Part shown: piece after piece, positions 1 to 10,670 of the stretch
Position numbering within the stretch: position 1 is the first letter of the stretch
Layout: each line of letters opens with the position of its first letter
DNA from: Desulfobacteraceae bacterium
GTDB taxonomy: Bacteria; Desulfobacterota; Desulfobacteria; Desulfobacterales; Desulfobacteraceae
NCBI GenBank assembly: GCA_023140455.1
Contig: JAGLLQ010000353.1
Coordinates: 1 to 10,732 of the forward strand
Reading direction: 5' to 3'
Length of the DNA stretch: 10,732 bases
The notes under the pieces: model-generated
Told to the model about the DNA's origin: nothing
The model's input: the letters and a program-made list of their open reading frames with translations, nothing else
Database searches by the model: none
Program-made: the position numbers and the translations under genes

Positions 1-3000
1 ATTTCCCAGCTGGCTTTATTACGGTCCGGGGGCACTGCTAATAATAATGATTGGGGAGGTTGAGTGTTGGGAGCATCATAATGGAATGCCACGCTGGTAT
101 CAATGGTTTCATTTGGTATTGTCTCAAGCCAGGCATCAATTTTAAGTCCGGATACACTCTTATCTGAATCAAGCCAGGTTTCTGTAAATATTTTTTCTCC
201 ACAGAAACCTGCTACTATAGAAATGTTGCTCAGAGCTCTGGATTTTAAAATAACAAGTATTCTGTTCTTCTGAACTTTCAAAGCATATTCAGAATCTCCA
301 TCAATAATTCTCCATTCTTTTGTTGCGTGAGTATAGACCGTTGCTGCATCAGACAATGGCATGTCTGACCCATTGAACTCATTAGAGATTGCATCGGGGA
401 TCTCGCCGCTATTTAACGTGTGAGTATGCCAGTTCCCAACATTAAATAGCACTCGTTCATCCTCAGACAGGCCTAACCAGCGATTCCCTTTTATGTAAGG
501 AAGTTGGCTCGCCTTCCAGTGAAAATGTGGATGGTCAGGAGTTGTTTGCAACAAAGCATTAGTCAGAAGCATGGTATTTTCCAGTTCATTCACAGCGCTT
601 TGTGCCAATGCCGCCTGTTGCAACCAAAGAGTTATCCTGTCAGAGTCCAATCCCCCAAGTATTTCATCTTGGTTAAATATGTTGCACAGAAGATTCGGGT
701 CTTTGGTTATAAATTCAGGAAGAACAATGAAATCATTTCCCAGTAATGATTTTATGCCATTCACTATTTCCGGCAGAGCCATGCTGTCTTTATACTTATT
801 ATATTTTGTGATCTTTTTATTAATTGCCTGAATTGTCATGACAACTCTTTTCAGTAGGTCTTCCTGATTTGAACCGGTTGGTATAGCAACAGGAATACCA
901 TACAAGCTTGCTTTCATAAGTTCATGGATTATTGATTGTGGATTCTGATTTTCTATATCAGTTAACAGGGCAGCTAAAATTTCTGATATTGTGTTTAGGT
1001 TATTAAAACTCTGGGTTTCAATATTTGATAATAATTGTATATCCTCATTGCTATAGGAGTTTTGATTGCCTTCATCGGGAAGCATAAACTCGTTGGGGCG
1101 GAGAGGGGAGGCCTTGCCTAACAGTTTTATAATTTGCTGTGACATCTGTACAAACTCCAGATATGAGACATCAGCATTATTTTTTTTATCAAATTGTAAT
1201 TGAATAATATCTTTATCATATAAGTGATGTTCCTGGCGGATCCAGTATTTTAATCGTTTTTCTATCTCAGTTTCACCGCCTCCGGGTGTGATACAAGCTA
1301 TGTAAAGGAAATCAATGGGTTGAAGTTGTATTTCTTTGGATAGTTCACTCCCAAATGAATCTGTGTGAAGATCGGAAAGGCTCAATTCATGTTTGTCGCC
1401 CGTAGTGCAGAATCTTCTGAATTTATTGCACTCAAGCTTATTGATACCTTCAACTCTGATAGTTTCTCCTATGCGGGTGAATTGTCCTTCATTATTTCTG
1501 CTGTTCATTATTTTTTCAACAGTTACTGAACCTATCCCGGGTAATTTCTCCAGGAGTTCAGCAGTGGCAGTATTTATATTTATCAGGTTTATGAATGGTT
1601 CATCACTCAAGTCTTTTCCCAGATATATCCATCGGTCAAGTTCCTTGACCAGGCGGTCTCCTATCCCATCTATATTCTTGAGTTCATTTAAATCTTTAAT
1701 GGTTCTTCCCTGCTTGAATTCAAGGATGGTTTCTGCCAAAGTATTTGATATCCCAGGGATATTTTGCAGGTCTTCTATGTAGCCTGCTCTATTATCATCA
1801 AAAATTTCCTGATTTATGTTAATTTTAAAACTTTGATATGAATATGAGAATTGAATATTTTCAAATGGTTTGAAAAGTGTGGTTATCCACTTTGTTAATC
1901 TTGGGCCGGCTATAGATTTTGGTGAAATATAAGTTGCCAACTCAGATTCATCAGGTTTTGGGAAAAAGAGACATACTTTATTTTCAAACGAATTGCCCAG
2001 GAGCGGAGTTTTCATTGATTCAATTTCAGGGATGGCGTTTTTTCCTGCCATTGCATCCATAAAAGCAGCAGCCCGGTCATAGTTCCCCTGTACAGTATGA
2101 TAAACACTTTCGTAAAGCAGCAGATCATTAACAGCATCAAAAGATGATTTTAGGTTTTTAATGGCAATATTTACATTTCCTGAGTCTGTTCCATTAATTA
2201 TTTGTTCTATTTTTTCAACTTCTTCTTTCAAACCCATATTGATATCTTTGCGGGTGTTGTCTTCATCCCAGCGTATAAGACTCAACCCATTTACAACATT
2301 CCGGGCAGTAATAGAAGCACTGGACCTTTCTTCTTCAGTATCCTCATATTCAATAGTCTCATCTGGTTCAGGGGTATCTGTTTTACTTACAGATATTGGG
2401 AAAGCTGCCCTGAACTCATCAATATATTTATCAAGTTTTACTTTGTTCAGTTCACGTTCAAAAATATATCCCAACAGAGCTCCTAAAGGTTGACCCTGTC
2501 TTATCCCATCAATAATCTGTATAGCTTTTCGTACCCTGTAAGATTCAAGATTGATTTTATATGGACTATTACCATTTTCTCTATGTGTCAGGAAAGCATT
2601 ATATAGTACGGCGCCTGTAGCAGCCTGTCCTCTGGACGGGGCATGGATATATCCTTCATTGTCATGTAAGTTATAGTCTGGTTTCAGGTTTTCAACCCAG
2701 CCATAAGCTCCAAGATAGATACCCTTTTTCTTTGCCTCTCTCATTGATTCAAGTCTTTTATATGCAAGAGAGGATATCCAAGCATCAACACGGTGAGAAA
2801 ACAGATCCAGTGTTGAATTAAATAGCAGATCAATATTCTGTGTCTCAGTTTTTATCACAAATGAATTAAGGATATCATGAACAGTGTCATCACCAATACC
2901 ATTAATAGCATATAGCTGATCTATCCCAGTGAACTTTTTATTCGAAATCTTATCCCGTGCATCAATGATTTTTTCTGCTTGTGATAAAGAAACACCACGT

Positions 3001-5315
3001 GTTTTTGCGCCTGCCCGAATGTATGCCGGATCATCCTTGATTCGTTTTACAATTTCCCGCGGAGATGAAACCGTATTGAAGAATTTAAGTAAAATCGGTA
3101 TATCAATATTTTTAAATGAAAAAATAATATCATGTAAAGTATCATGGCCGAGTCCTTCTATGGAAAGGAGTTCGATAATAGTTTCCAGTTGTTTTTTCTC
3201 TTTGCAGTTACGGAATTCAAGTATTTTTTCAGCAATTTTTTCACGGATGCCATAAGCTTTGGGTGCTTTTTTCCTGAAATATGGATCATCAACAATTCTT
3301 TTTACTATTGCCTTGGGGTCGTTTTCAGCATTCAGGAATTCCATTGCTGAAATGTTTTTAAGAAAATTAATAGCACGCTTAATCTTGCCCTGTTCTTCAG
3401 GTTGATCATGGGTCAATAATAAAGAAAGCCGGGAAAAATAGTCAAAGTCTATATCAATTTCATCTGCTTTATTCCATGCAAATAATCTAAATAATTTTGA
3501 AGAGCGGATTTGTCCCTGGTTCAGTCCTGTTAATTCTGAAAAATATTCAGCAATAGCGTCCTTTGTGCTTTGAGAAGTATTGTACCATTGCCCGGCCCAG
3601 AATTCTGGATCATTCATACCTTCAAAAGCAGTCCCCTCTCCAAAATAATAGTCTCTAAATGCACCAATAATCCAGCTTTGAAATTTATCAGATAAAATTG
3701 GTCTGGCATTGATCTTATATGATACCGGCTCCATTGATAGTATAGAGATGAGAGATTGATCAGGATCAGAAGAGTGAGCCATTCTGGGTATTCTGTTTTG
3801 GTTATTGCTCAGGTTTTTCCATAATTCAAAAAAGTTCATTAAAATTGCATGCAATCCGGTATCAAAAGATTCCCAGTTTTTATTTTTGATGATATCTTTG
3901 CTTGAATGTTTCCAGCCATACATATTGTCAGGAGAATTAGGCAAAATACTGGTAACTGGCAATATACCATAAGGCTGTGTATCAATCCTGAGACTTGGGA
4001 AATGCCCCAGAGCTCTTACAAATTGGTTGAAGTGATCTTCAATGTCATTAATTGTGCTTTCTTCAGTAGTATTATTGAGCAGATCAGTCAGAAAGAATTT
4101 ACCAGTTCCCGGCCAGATACAGGTATTCATCTGCCGCGCATAGTCAAGGGTTTTATCCCCTGAATTCTGTAAATATCGGAAAATGTTAAGGTCGTCATCA
4201 AAACCTAATGCTTTGCCTAACAGATTTGCATTATGTCTATGCAGAGCATTAGGATTATTAAAATCGTCCGGACCTTTTATCTCAATATCATAAGTTTCTT
4301 CATAATCGTCATAGGATTCAGAATGACCGGATTTAAGATCTCCGGTATTATTGGTAGGAGTATATAGCTCACAAAATGAGATACCAGAGGAATAATGATG
4401 GTTGTTTATCAAATTGCGGAGTGTTTCTTCTTCGCTGTCAGGATCTGGTCCCCGAATCCCGACTACAATGATTTTTTCAAACCCCTGGGATCTGTCTTCA
4501 TGGGTAAGGTTTTCAATACAGATGGCCATTCCATTTTTTTCAGCTTCTTCTTTATTGATAATCCAATGTGTTGATGAGGTGAACAGATCTTCATTTTCAC
4601 TGTTCCCTTTAATAACATCCAGATCTGCAGGAATGATATTGCCCAGTTTCTTATAAATCAGCTCACCTTCCCTGAAAGTGTAGACAATGAAACGCCTTGG
4701 TATTGCCTGCAGATTGGTTTCAGTAATAAAATCATTTTTATCAACATGGAACTCATCAGGCTTGCCATTATACTTAATGTAGGAGAGTACATAGGAAGCT
4801 CTTTCTGAACCAAGAGCTGATGCGCATTCCCGCCAGGCATTTTTCATTCCGGTTTCTTTCTCTTCAGGTTCTATATCATCATTTTCTTCCAATGCACGTT
4901 TGTCATCACTAAATTTTATTCCGGCATTGTATTCGTTTTCCGTAATGCCAGGAATATGTGTGTTTAAGAATATCTGATCCGGATATATTCTGATCCAAAG
5001 CTTATTATCAATAAATCGTGTTTCAAGTTTCAGAGGGAGCAGTAAAAAAGGATAATCCACAGAATGAATTTTATTATCATCAATTAATTGTTCGATATTA
5101 TTTTTAAACTGATTAGGAATATTATCTATATTAAGAATATCGCTAAGCATTTTTATCCTGTTTCCAGCAAGACTATTGCGATACTCAATGATTTGATCCG
5201 CAAAAGCAGTAGATATCTCGAAATTCTCAATATGAGAAAACATACCAATTAACTCGTCAGAGTTTTTGACGTTATTAAGGAGTAATAAAATTTCAGATAC
5301 GTTTGATTTGTCCAT
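1..5315 (-). CDS. Giant uncharacterised protein with inserted helix-hairpin-helix modules (C-terminus cut by window edge)
   Basis: The minus-strand frame stays open from ATG at 5315 to the left edge: 1771 full codons, so the protein exceeds about 200 kDa. I see no signal peptide or membrane segment. Motifs I recognise from a family of large unnamed bacterial proteins are LPLKLETRF (about 93-101), RIYPDQI (109-115), QPYGILPVT (447-455), LDLFSHRVDAW (836-846), YGWVE (871-875), RQGQPLGALLGY (939-950) and FHYDAP...LLLAVPPD (about 1744-1764). I know no function for the family. HhH-like modules occur at about 33-78, 669-819 (tandem duplicate) and 1179-1303. An acidic, low-complexity stretch follows about residue 970. 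The start is uncertain: an in-frame TAG lies five codons upstream, ATG 5315 is the first ATG, a TTG four codons earlier is possible, and neither has a good Shine-Dalgarno. The real stop lies outside the window. That the gene is real is near certain; its role is unknown. Confidence 0.9.
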   Translation of the reverse strand, partial: MDKSNVSEILLLLNNVKNSDELIGMFSHIENFEISTAFADQIIEYRNSLAGNRIKMLSDILNIDNIPNQFKNNIEQLIDDNKIHSVDYPFLLLPLKLETRFIDNKLWIRIYPDQIFLNTHIPGITENEYNAGIKFSDDKRALEENDDIEPEEKETGMKNAWRECASALGSERASYVLSYIKYNGKPDEFHVDKNDFITETNLQAIPRRFIVYTFREGELIYKKLGNIIPADLDVIKGNSENEDLFTSSTHWIINKEEAEKNGMAICIENLTHEDRSQGFEKIIVVGIRGPDPDSEEETLRNLINNHHYSSGISFCELYTPTNNTGDLKSGHSESYDDYEETYDIEIKGPDDFNNPNALHRHNANLLGKALGFDDDLNIFRYLQNSGDKTLDYARQMNTCIWPGTGKFFLTDLLNNTTEESTINDIEDHFNQFVRALGHFPSLRIDTQPYGILPVTSILPNSPDNMYGWKHSSKDIIKNKNWESFDTGLHAILMNFFELWKNLSNNQNRIPRMAHSSDPDQSLISILSMEPVSYKINARPILSDKFQSWIIGAFRDYYFGEGTAFEGMNDPEFWAGQWYNTSQSTKDAIAEYFSELTGLNQGQIRSSKLFRLFAWNKADEIDIDFDYFSRLSLLLTHDQPEEQGKIKRAINFLKNISAMEFLNAENDPKAIVKRIVDDPYFRKKAPKAYGIREKIAEKILEFRNCKEKKQLETIIELLSIEGLGHDTLHDIIFSFKNIDIPILLKFFNTVSSPREIVKRIKDDPAYIRAGAKTRGVSLSQAEKIIDARDKISNKKFTGIDQLYAINGIGDDTVHDILNSFVIKTETQNIDLLFNSTLDLFSHRVDAWISSLAYKRLESMREAKKKGIYLGAYGWVENLKPDYNLHDNEGYIHAPSRGQAATGAVLYNAFLTHRENGNSPYKINLESYRVRKAIQIIDGIRQGQPLGALLGYIFERELNKVKLDKYIDEFRAAFPISVSKTDTPEPDETIEYEDTEEERSSASITARNVVNGLSLIRWDEDNTRKDINMGLKEEVEKIEQIINGTDSGNVNIAIKNLKSSFDAVNDLLLYESVYHTVQGNYDRAAAFMDAMAGKNAIPEIESMKTPLLGNSFENKVCLFFPKPDESELATYISPKSIAGPRLTKWITTLFKPFENIQFSYSYQSFKININQEIFDDNRAGYIEDLQNIPGISNTLAETILEFKQGRTIKDLNELKNIDGIGDRLVKELDRWIYLGKDLSDEPFINLININTATAELLEKLPGIGSVTVEKIMNSRNNEGQFTRIGETIRVEGINKLECNKFRRFCTTGDKHELSLSDLHTDSFGSELSKEIQLQPIDFLYIACITPGGGETEIEKRLKYWIRQEHHLYDKDIIQLQFDKKNNADVSYLEFVQMSQQIIKLLGKASPLRPNEFMLPDEGNQNSYSNEDIQLLSNIETQSFNNLNTISEILAALLTDIENQNPQSIIHELMKASLYGIPVAIPTGSNQEDLLKRVVMTIQAINKKITKYNKYKDSMALPEIVNGIKSLLGNDFIVLPEFITKDPNLLCNIFNQDEILGGLDSDRITLWLQQAALAQSAVNELENTMLLTNALLQTTPDHPHFHWKASQLPYIKGNRWLGLSEDERVLFNVGNWHTHTLNSGEIPDAISNEFNGSDMPLSDAATVYTHATKEWRIIDGDSEYALKVQKNRILVILKSRALSNISIVAGFCGEKIFTETWLDSDKSVSGLKIDAWLETIPNETIDTSVAFHYDAPNTQPPQSLLLAVPPDRNKASWE
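1407..1781 (-). other. ComEA/GspK-like double helix-hairpin-helix region in the giant protein
   Basis: Residues 1179-1303 contain four successive hairpin-like turns: IPGIS, IDGIG, LPGIG and VEGIN. The second half begins LININTATAELLEKLPGIG, which closely matches the INxAxxxxLxxLPGIG signature of the helix-hairpin-helix units of ComEA (DNA uptake) and GspK/T2SK (type II secretion minor pseudopilin). In ComEA the unit binds DNA. Here it is embedded in a very large, otherwise unrelated protein, so DNA binding cannot be assumed; a structural or oligomerisation role is equally open. Confidence 0.8.
2859..3311 (-). repeat. Tandem duplication inside the giant gene (two 66-residue copies, 85-residue period)
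   Basis: Copy 1 is residues 669-734 (3114-3311) and copy 2 is residues 754-819 (2859-3056). They align without gaps; I count 28 identities in 66. Shared landmarks are IVKRI..DDP at the start, a central AEKI helix, and a closing I.GLG/I.GIG turn followed by DT.HDI..SF. The G-hydrophobic-G turn between two short helices is typical of helix-hairpin-helix modules. A 19-residue linker separates the copies. The block lies just before the conserved LDLFSHRVDAW core motif, so it looks like an insertion into the family core. DNA similarity is modest, so the duplication is old. Confidence 0.75.
5082..5219 (-). other. N-terminal HhH-like module of the giant protein
   Basis: Residues about 33-78 follow the same pattern as the clearer modules further on: a helix with ADQIIEYRN, then a second helix pair ending in a DILNIDNI turn and a closing helix. 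In the modules at 774-819 and 1185-1230 the equivalent positions read AEKIIDARD and AETILEFKQ. The hairpin glycines of a classical GIG turn are replaced by N and P here, so this is a degenerate copy. Calling it HhH rests on the resemblance to the other modules. Confidence 0.45.
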
Positions 5316-5360
5316 AATAATTAGCAACTATAATTATGTAATATTTAAGTATCTATAATT

Positions 5361-5491: not shown

Positions 5492-6028
5492 TCAACTTGT
5501 TTTTTCTCTATCCTTTTTCCCGATTGAGGTTTGAATGTAGAATATAATGGAAAATGAAGCAATGACTATGATCCAACCCAACTTATCTCCAAACCAAAGT
5601 GATGTAATCACAGCAATAATGAAACTATTGACAACAGCAACAGTGTCTGTCAAACCCCCTCGAAAAAGTTTGGTTTCCTTTTCCCGGAAAGGTATTTTAT
5701 ATTCAGAGAGAGTTATAGATCGTTCTTTCAGTTGTTCGCGCAAGTATTTAATGATATCTTTGTATTCATCAGTAACTCTGTTCCGTTTTAGTATTCTGAA
5801 AAAAGTAACAAGACCAAAGAGAAAGAGACCGGAAAGTGCAACTGAAACTATTTGGCGGATTTCTAAGTCAGTGCAATGATCATTAGTGCTCAACGCAATT
5901 AATCCGGCTATGACTGCTGTAGTCAGTGTGATAAAGAAATTTACCCGCTTTTCGCCCACTTCTTCATTTTTCCAGAATGAAGCTGAGAAATGTTCATACT
6001 CAGCCAGCAAAAGTTTTTCATCTTCCAT
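5492..6028 (-). CDS. Predicted four-helix membrane protein of unknown function
   Basis: The product has 178 residues with four hydrophobic segments at about 30-47, 58-80, 126-146 and 150-168. Basic residues before segment 1 (EKR), after segment 2 (KRNR), before segment 3 and after segment 4 (KKDR) predict that both ends and the 45-residue charged, helical middle loop (81-125) face the cytoplasm. The N-terminal stretch FWKNEEVGEKRVNFF is a pattern I have seen in unnamed bacterial membrane proteins, but I cannot give a family name. The layout of two helices, a cytoplasmic coil and two helices vaguely recalls small membrane effectors such as SLATT-type proteins; I do not see enough to assign it. 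The start is supported by AGAGG seven bases upstream of the ATG. It reads in the same direction as the giant gene, 176 bp upstream of it. Confidence 0.85.
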   Translation of the reverse strand: MEDEKLLLAEYEHFSASFWKNEEVGEKRVNFFITLTTAVIAGLIALSTNDHCTDLEIRQIVSVALSGLFLFGLVTFFRILKRNRVTDEYKDIIKYLREQLKERSITLSEYKIPFREKETKLFRGGLTDTVAVVNSFIIAVITSLWFGDKLGWIIVIASFSIIFYIQTSIGKKDREKTS

Positions 6029-9926: not shown

Positions 9927-10670
9927 TTATTTAAAAAATGTCAAAAACGCATGAAGGTTAGTGAGAGGATGTGGGGGGCAGCCCGGTATGAATAAATCAA
10001 CAGGCAAGATAGTATCAAGACCTTCAGTTATTTCAGGGCTTCCCAAAAAAGGACCGCCGGAGATTGTACAGCTTCCTACAGCAATAACGACTTTTGGATC
10101 AGGTGTTGCTTCATATGTCTGCAATAATGCAGTTTTCATATTCCTGGAGACTGGACCTGTTACGACAATAGCATCTGAGTGACGCGGCGATGCAACAAAG
10201 TTTATACCGAAACGGGCAAGGTCAAAAAATGGTGTTGCAAGTACGTTTAAATCTGCTTCACAGGCATTACAGCCTGCTGCTGATACCTGCCTAAGCTGTA
10301 AAGATCTGCCAAATAGTTTTTTGAAATGTTGTTTTGAATGTTCAGCAAGAGCAGGTAGGTCACCATCTGTAATCAAGTCAGTTCTTTGAGAGGTTGAAAT
10401 TTCAAAATCCCCTGTAAAAGTGACAAATTTTCCGTCAGAAATACGTTCACATGTTCCACAAAAGACACATCTGCCCATATCAATTTTTTTCAAATCAACA
10501 TTTATAGCATCCTGAGGACAAGCCTCTGCACACATTTTCAGTGCCTCAGCTGACACATCTTTTTTGATCTCAGGTCTTCCACGGTAACGTGAAAATACAG
10601 CAGGTTTCTCTTTAGGATAGTTATTTGTTTTGCAACCTTGTTCAAATCTATTTTTCAGTATATTGAGCAT
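9927..10670 (-). CDS. Ferredoxin / NuoB-like small subunit fusion of a group 4 hydrogenase-like or complex I-like enzyme
   Basis: The 247-residue product has two parts. Residues about 40-80 are a ferredoxin segment with CAEACP (C47, C51) and CVFCGTC (C68, C71, C74), enough for one [4Fe-4S] cluster. Residues about 120-247 match the NuoB/HycG/EchC family: GCNACE (C134, C137), VGSC (C201) and IPGCPPHP (C231), the four ligands of the cluster next to the catalytic site or quinone. CNACE resembles hydrogenase small subunits (CNGCE) more than NuoB (CC). The protein would pass electrons within a membrane-bound Ech/Hyf- or Ehr-type complex on the cytoplasmic face. Whether the complex has a NiFe site depends on the large subunit, outside the window. 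AAAGAGAG (10677-10684), six bases before the ATG, supports the start. It lies directly upstream of the beta-helix gene. Confidence 0.9.
   Translation of the reverse strand: MLNILKNRFEQGCKTNNYPKEKPAVFSRYRGRPEIKKDVSAEALKMCAEACPQDAINVDLKKIDMGRCVFCGTCERISDGKFVTFTGDFEISTSQRTDLITDGDLPALAEHSKQHFKKLFGRSLQLRQVSAAGCNACEADLNVLATPFFDLARFGINFVASPRHSDAIVVTGPVSRNMKTALLQTYEATPDPKVVIAVGSCTISGGPFLGSPEITEGLDTILPVDLFIPGCPPHPLTNLHAFLTFFK

Follow-up and report, generated by a model that had tools for sequence, protein, structure and literature searches.

The giant gene and its surroundings

The window (the whole stretch of DNA analyzed here, 10,732 nucleotides of contig JAGLLQ010000353.1 from a Desulfobacteraceae bacterium) holds at its left a gene that we call the giant (3..5315, minus strand), with 1,771 codons from an ATG at 5315 and a C terminus that lies past the window's left end; an alternative TTG start at 5327 would give the frame 3..5327 (minus strand, open at the left edge). 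An earlier note on this DNA had described a single very long open frame with the motifs of a large family of undescribed function. The frame was confirmed, all of the motifs are present in it, and the family proved real: six core blocks could be delimited, each found in 183 to 196 of 196 giants, and the window's giant, which has all six, is a member of an unnamed family of its own. The blocks, all on the minus strand, are c1 (LETRF and RIYPD; 4632..5063; in 194 of the 196 giants), c2 (QPYGILPVT; 3678..4592; 196 of 196), c3 (SHRVDAW, YGWVE and RQGQPLGALLGY; 1848..2834; 196 of 196), c4 (1053..1337; 183 of 196), c5 (453..779; 191 of 196) and c6 (FHYDAP...LLAVPPD; 3..164; 190 of 196). The insertion between c5 and c6 (165..452, minus strand) is common to the closest relatives, being 96-100 residues long in P0001 and P0003-P0006 and 62 in P0118 (the median over 189 giants is 30), and matched no Pfam family or recognized domain.

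Directly upstream of the giant is a gene for a small membrane protein (5492-6028, minus strand) that matches 8xMP below threshold (PF24838; E 5.2e-6, 26.8 bits, cut-off 30). Further to the right are a methionine-synthase-like protein (PF01717; 6188-7282, plus strand; residues 131-349 of 364 matched) that scores far under the NCBIfam equivalog cut-offs, an MFS transporter, a hexapeptide-repeat protein, and a ferredoxin/NuoB fusion gene (9927-10670, minus strand) in which a NuoB-like small subunit is joined to a ferredoxin part of NuoI/HycF type. Scanning for promoters next to the giant gave 8 sites (5.0 expected) and no terminator.

HhH modules

HhH-like units occur at three places between the conserved blocks: at the N terminus (residues 31-88; 5064..5237, minus strand), where a seeded profile and the helix pattern in the model indicate one; before SHRVDAW (residues 696-832; 2832..3242, minus strand); and as an inserted, ComEA-like module recognized by Pfam HHH_3 (residues 1175-1310; 1398..1805, minus strand). 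HHH_3 (PF12836) matches the giant over four stretches (E 6.5e-31, 106.7 bits against a curated cut-off of 27). The slot between c3 and c4, which the third module occupies (residues 1175-1310 here), has a median length of 22 residues over all 183 giants measured; 25 of the 183 carry a long insert there, and the insert is HhH in 25 of 25. Pooled N-terminal and mid slots gave no match to the HhH insert in HMM-HMM comparison, because most members hold other sequence there. Seeding from the window's own protein, unlike the pooled slots, did recover HhH slots in relatives: a profile built on the N-terminal unit (5064..5237) matches their slots between the N terminus and c1, between c2 and c3, and between c3 and c4.

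The placement of HhH given in the earlier note is thus upheld, and it is lineage-specific, most relatives having no HhH. The contrary possibility, that these segments are core helices present in every member, fails, as HhH is not in the core of all giants; a view of HhH as the key to function finds no support either, most relatives lacking it. We infer that the HhH modules are an add-on in one part of the giant family and dispensable for the rest of the machinery, and that they probably serve contact with nucleic acid or another ligand.

A cassette of large genes

Our locus set (n = 86, with our own longest-ORF calls) consists of six plasmid loci and the best 80 of at least 504 genome loci; because only the best-scoring ones were retained, the latter lean to the closest relatives. 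Listing the genes beside homologs, as the earlier note had proposed, revealed a row made up of DUF6603, two genes called B and D, and the cargo, a gene that is exchangeable and often resembles a hydrolase; the usual order is cargo, DUF6603, B, giant, D. Of the 86 loci, many of whose contigs end inside the cassette, 84 have the giant/D cluster, 65 have B and 62 have DUF6603 (PF20248); the two DUF6603 genes beside giants that were tested match the PF20248 model at E 6e-97 and 3.9e-139. Gaps of 30 nt or less, overlaps included, separate DUF6603 from B in 47 of 54 pairs, B from the giant in 48 of 61 and the giant from D in 51 of 62, and the gene preceding DUF6603 lies within 30 nt of it in 45 of 57 pairs; this spacing, measured from longest-ORF starts, is operon-like. 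Six loci (L045, L061-L063, L067 and L081) carry a fusion of the giant with D. Neighbor families present in more than 8 of the 86 loci are solely the core families and one cargo group, and no immunity-like small gene is recurrent in the neighbor clusters of these loci (ORFs of at least 90 aa).

None of the genes to the right of the giant in the window is a cassette partner (DUF6603, B, D or cargo). In five loci (L007, L008, L010, L021 and L025; D was not found in L007, and the L010 row was checked as far as B) the giant comes first and is followed by cargo and DUF6603. One side of a 45-row tree consists of six loci, these five among them, and a 114-row tree puts the window's giant on that same side. 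As the giant leads in all but one of the six genome loci closest to the window's branch, the window's partners are expected beyond the contig's left end; by this comparison of gene orders, the window's own D, cargo, DUF6603 and B would all lie past the left edge.

Two side observations concern the large proteins themselves. In L003, a Rhizobium lusitanum plasmid, B and the giant are each split into two reading frames, and the split frames may mark where the chassis (the four large proteins) could tolerate a break. A strongly hydrophobic stretch is present in 15 of 66 B proteins (for example, L080, L020 and L016), at about residues 550-715 in full-length proteins and not N-terminally.

Distribution of the family

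One search returned 139 relatives of the giant, and a scan of one genome per species matched at least 591 stretches, of which at least 504 were confirmed as loci and the best 80 used. Among the matches listed, the giant spans roughly 15 phyla of bacteria and three lineages of archaea (haloarchaea, methanogens and one Asgard archaeon). Thirteen plasmid records matched it, and in all six that were inspected the row of large genes included DUF6603. The cassette is nonetheless rare, with matches over several core blocks in 1 of 237 and 2 of 251 genomes of two phyla (centers included); raw tallies of 99 of 237 and 86 of 251 genomes were rejected, nearly all being single short matches, mostly to the HhH part. 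PF20248 had no match in 14 well-known control genomes. Two cassettes or giants occur within single genomes or bins (L022 and L041; G005; G008), and Nitrospira sp. LK70 has one cassette with PhoD-type cargo and another with PLD-type cargo.

A phage origin of the giant found no support, none of 69 pattern matches in viral_contigs being confirmed. The sole matching phage record, MT835531 (L087), is marked UNVERIFIED, has 75% GC and carries the giant and D; our guess is that it is a bacterial fragment rather than a phage. Solved structures searched by sequence held no relative of the chassis core, a literature search for DUF6603 or PF20248 returned no paper naming either, and the titles and abstract openings that broader searches brought up held nothing on this cassette.

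The cargo gene and its exchange

We defined cargo as a co-directional frame of at least 150 aa, at most 120 nt upstream of DUF6603. By this rule 47 of the 62 DUF6603 loci have one and 15 do not, the latter wrongly including L028, whose PhoD-related gene the rule skipped. Using Pfam, or similarity to members with Pfam hits, we could name 34 of the 47; three more are WD40-like and ten fall in no group. The named cargoes comprise 14 PhoD-related proteins, five PLD, five M64, four that share the N terminus of the M23 cargo (the M23 domain itself is found only in L010), three serine proteases, and single cases of Het-C (not a known hydrolase), an Rv2525c-like and a beta-lactamase-like protein. Similarity, not a Pfam scan of the protein itself, is the basis for calling L061-L063 WD40-like and for most of the PhoD assignments. 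Thirty proteins were scanned singly, of which two (both from L012) lie outside the cargo position; of the other 28 proteins, 14 reach the cut-off of a hydrolase family (PhoD in L002 and L022; M23 in L010; M64 in L056, L060 and L074; PLD in L016, L020, L044 and L084; Rv2525c-like in L030; beta-lactamase-like in L031; subtilase in L040; trypsin in L078), two match one below its cut-off (L025, M64; L077, trypsin-like), one is Het-C (L029), one is peptidoglycan-binding (L008) and ten have no family.

The HExxH motif is present in the M64-type cargoes of L032, L056, L060 and L074 and absent from that of L025, and all five PLD cargoes have one or two copies of HxKxxxxD. Different cargoes also have non-catalytic stretches in common: the M23, the peptidoglycan-binding and two ungrouped cargoes share an N-terminal stretch (about 220 to 390 residues, depending on the pair), and a C-terminal stretch (about 90 residues; E 4e-7 to 1e-6) is common to the subtilase and trypsin-like cargoes. 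As a control we scanned 98 of 118 candidate genes downstream of cassettes (the 20 omitted were mostly very long frames); no Pfam family occurred in more than two of them, judged on the 25 most frequent of 172 families.

Cargo labels were then mapped on the tree of 45 giants, with 13 rows of other or ungrouped cargo standing outside the counts. The five cargo groups require 13 changes (minimum 4), as against a mean of 15.7 for shuffled labels, with a value as low in 1 of 200 shuffles. The total falls under the shuffled mean because PhoD is clustered (6 changes versus 11.0 shuffled); M64 and PLD, each with 5 rows and 5 changes, are both as scattered as shuffled labels. Sister giants with support of at least 100/97 carry different cargo in four pairs: L060 (M64) and L084 (PLD), L074 (M64) and L044 (PLD), L083 (M23-type) and L077 (trypsin-like), and L007 (PhoD) and L025 (M64). 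Cargo is partly inherited with the giant and often replaced. On the simplest reading, which gives the strongest hint to function, the chassis keeps its form while loads are swapped, and we hold a constant chassis with swappable cargo to be very probable. The cassette has apparently been passed between lineages.

DUF6603: predicted fold and second architecture

The structural model of DUF6603, of moderate confidence (pLDDT 77, pTM 0.50), predicts a very large amphipathic beta structure with a long succession of strands; the strand alternation is 2.92, compared with 1.16 in shuffled sequence (0 of 1000 as high). Foldseek with this model returned nine chains at E 1e-5 to 9e-4, including the outer-membrane barrels and ushers SlpA, LptD and FimD, with ApoB100 appearing solely above E 0.001. 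The predicted fold may resemble outer-membrane barrels, with poor superposition on the barrel matches (rmsd of about 10 Å or more). A BFVD search with the same model was set aside; its four matches at E ≤ 0.001, one named as a putative tail fiber, had TM of at most 0.10. By a crude hydropathy test, none of 65 DUF6603 frames has a 19-residue window above 1.9 in its first 60 residues (three have one above 1.6, and two have a 12-residue window above 2.2), nor does any chassis or grouped cargo frame, and no export signal or secretion route was found for the cassette proteins.

DUF6603 is not confined to the cassette. It occurs in 9 of 299 genomes sampled within the phylum to which G005 belongs (Pseudomonadota, judging by the L021 record), at ten places; both places in G005 belong to the cassette, and the other eight (L106-L113) have a second architecture, in which DUF6603 is about 1,500-3,390 aa long and the giant has no match. 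A B-like gene is found in five of these eight loci (three by profile and two by similarity to those three; pooled HH-suite probability 97.9, E 6.6e-13). The second architecture suggests a broader superfamily. A large gene of about 1,270 aa further along these loci was rejected as a relative of the giant, no link being found in the six loci, out of eight, that were compared; the gene upstream in L107 has a weak match to the metallo-beta-lactamase fold, under the cut-off.

Proposed function

Conservation, gene order, tight spacing, cargo exchange and slot structure are shown by the comparisons above. We propose that the giant serves as the scaffold subunit in a cassette-encoded, undescribed apparatus that delivers or presents an enzyme outward, a reading to which we give a probability of about 0.5. 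The four large proteins would form a complex, the constant chassis, to which DUF6603 would supply a very large amphipathic beta-barrel or beta-sheet; the giant would hold the parts together and display variable surface slots, filled with HhH here and with carboxypeptidase-regulatory-like, BGTF or other modules elsewhere. The single enzyme of each cassette, a hydrolase in most assigned cases and swapped among lineages, would be the active load, which the assembly, once exported, may present or deliver to a target beyond the producing cell, be it a membrane, a cell wall or another macromolecule. A bolder version, which we regard as possible and rather doubtful, is a new class of machine in which a single-chain giant DUF6603 barrel and three partners export one interchangeable hydrolase across or onto a foreign membrane, with no sheath, needle, signal peptide or dedicated immunity gene, in Bacteria, haloarchaea, methanogens and an Asgard archaeon.

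Other explanations use the same observations. Several cargo types (M64, M23, PhoD, PLD and subtilase) are exoenzyme-like, annotation gives BGTF surface and lamin-tail domains to two haloarchaeal giants as well as to their D proteins, and immunity genes did not recur among ORFs of at least 90 aa. All of this would suit a cellulosome-like scaffold that displays one exoenzyme outside the cell or on its surface to break down nutrients and transfers nothing into a target cell. The giant, however, has no dockerin, cohesin or anchoring family, chassis and grouped cargo gave no N-terminal 19-residue window above 1.9 in the crude test above, and display would not need a huge amphipathic beta structure; we consider this account unlikely. 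If DUF6603 were a beta sheet that carries lipid instead of a channel for protein, and the enzymes acted on lipids or the envelope, the cassette would be a lipid-binding or membrane-remodeling apparatus. Such a role is very unlikely in our estimation: the strong strand alternation (2.92, shuffled 1.16), the Foldseek matches to LptD and, solely above E 0.001, to ApoB100, and the PLD and PhoD cargo agree with it, whereas protease and peptidase cargo (M64, M23, trypsin-like and subtilase) is unfit for lipid work, and strand alternation by itself fits any amphipathic sheet.

Conflict systems typically pair a constant core with interchangeable effectors. An intracellular system of this kind, in which the giant senses nucleic acid through HhH and the enzyme, once activated, harms host or invader, would explain the exchange of effectors on a constant core, the nucleic-acid-type HhH domains, the WD40-like genes in cargo position in three loci and the lack of an export signal by hydropathy. 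Most giants nevertheless have no HhH, M23 and peptidoglycan-binding cargo suggest outward action, a chassis of about 4,500 residues would be unusual for a sensor, and PADLOC returned 0 families for the giant and the partners tested (one B, two D, one DUF6603, one cargo and the second half of the split Rhizobium giant), so that we judge this explanation improbable.

The giant is the largest piece of an undescribed cassette and no one-genome curiosity. Should the products of the cassette make up a single apparatus, this would be a nameless system with a widely scattered distribution.

Comparison with known systems

The outward delivery or presentation that we favor invites comparison with known machines. 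The earlier note had seen in the giant a possible scaffold of an undescribed complex or of an injection- or defense-type apparatus; the former idea stands insofar as the giant is part of a conserved multi-gene row, and the latter is not supported, there being no phage-tail family at E ≤ 0.001 and no defense family on the proteins tested. Extracellular contractile injection systems are multi-gene, occur in Bacteria and Archaea and have an exchangeable load. The cassette is like them in all three respects and differs in that its tested proteins match no phage-tail PHROG at that threshold, and sheath, tube and baseplate genes were not found by the PHROGs search of cassette proteins or among neighbor families in more than 8 of 86 loci. 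Tc (ABC) toxin complexes combine very large subunits with a separate enzymatic part; the cassette has both as well, and Pfam models of Tc toxin domains match neither the giant nor those DUF6603, B and D proteins that were tested.

The strand succession of the DUF6603 model is predicted to resemble that of outer-membrane barrels and ushers such as SlpA, LptD and FimD. Those barrels have a signal peptide and an outer membrane to sit in; DUF6603 frames have no signal by hydropathy, superpose poorly and belong to hosts that include Actinomycetota, Bacillota and archaea (Streptomyces, Paenibacillus and Halobaculum). ComEA-type HhH proteins are similar to the giant in the HhH units at residues 1175-1310, which form only a module of it; the conserved core blocks have no ComEA match. 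The DUF6603 (PF20248) model itself has no assigned function, and the cassette, exchangeable cargo and second architecture described here are not part of it.

Polymorphic toxin systems (PMC3482391) differ in that the enzyme of the cassette is a whole separate gene, usually the first, and no immunity gene recurred beside it among ORFs of at least 90 aa. What the cassette has in common with them is a constant carrier with an exchangeable enzymatic part, as seen in the 13 changes among five cargo groups.
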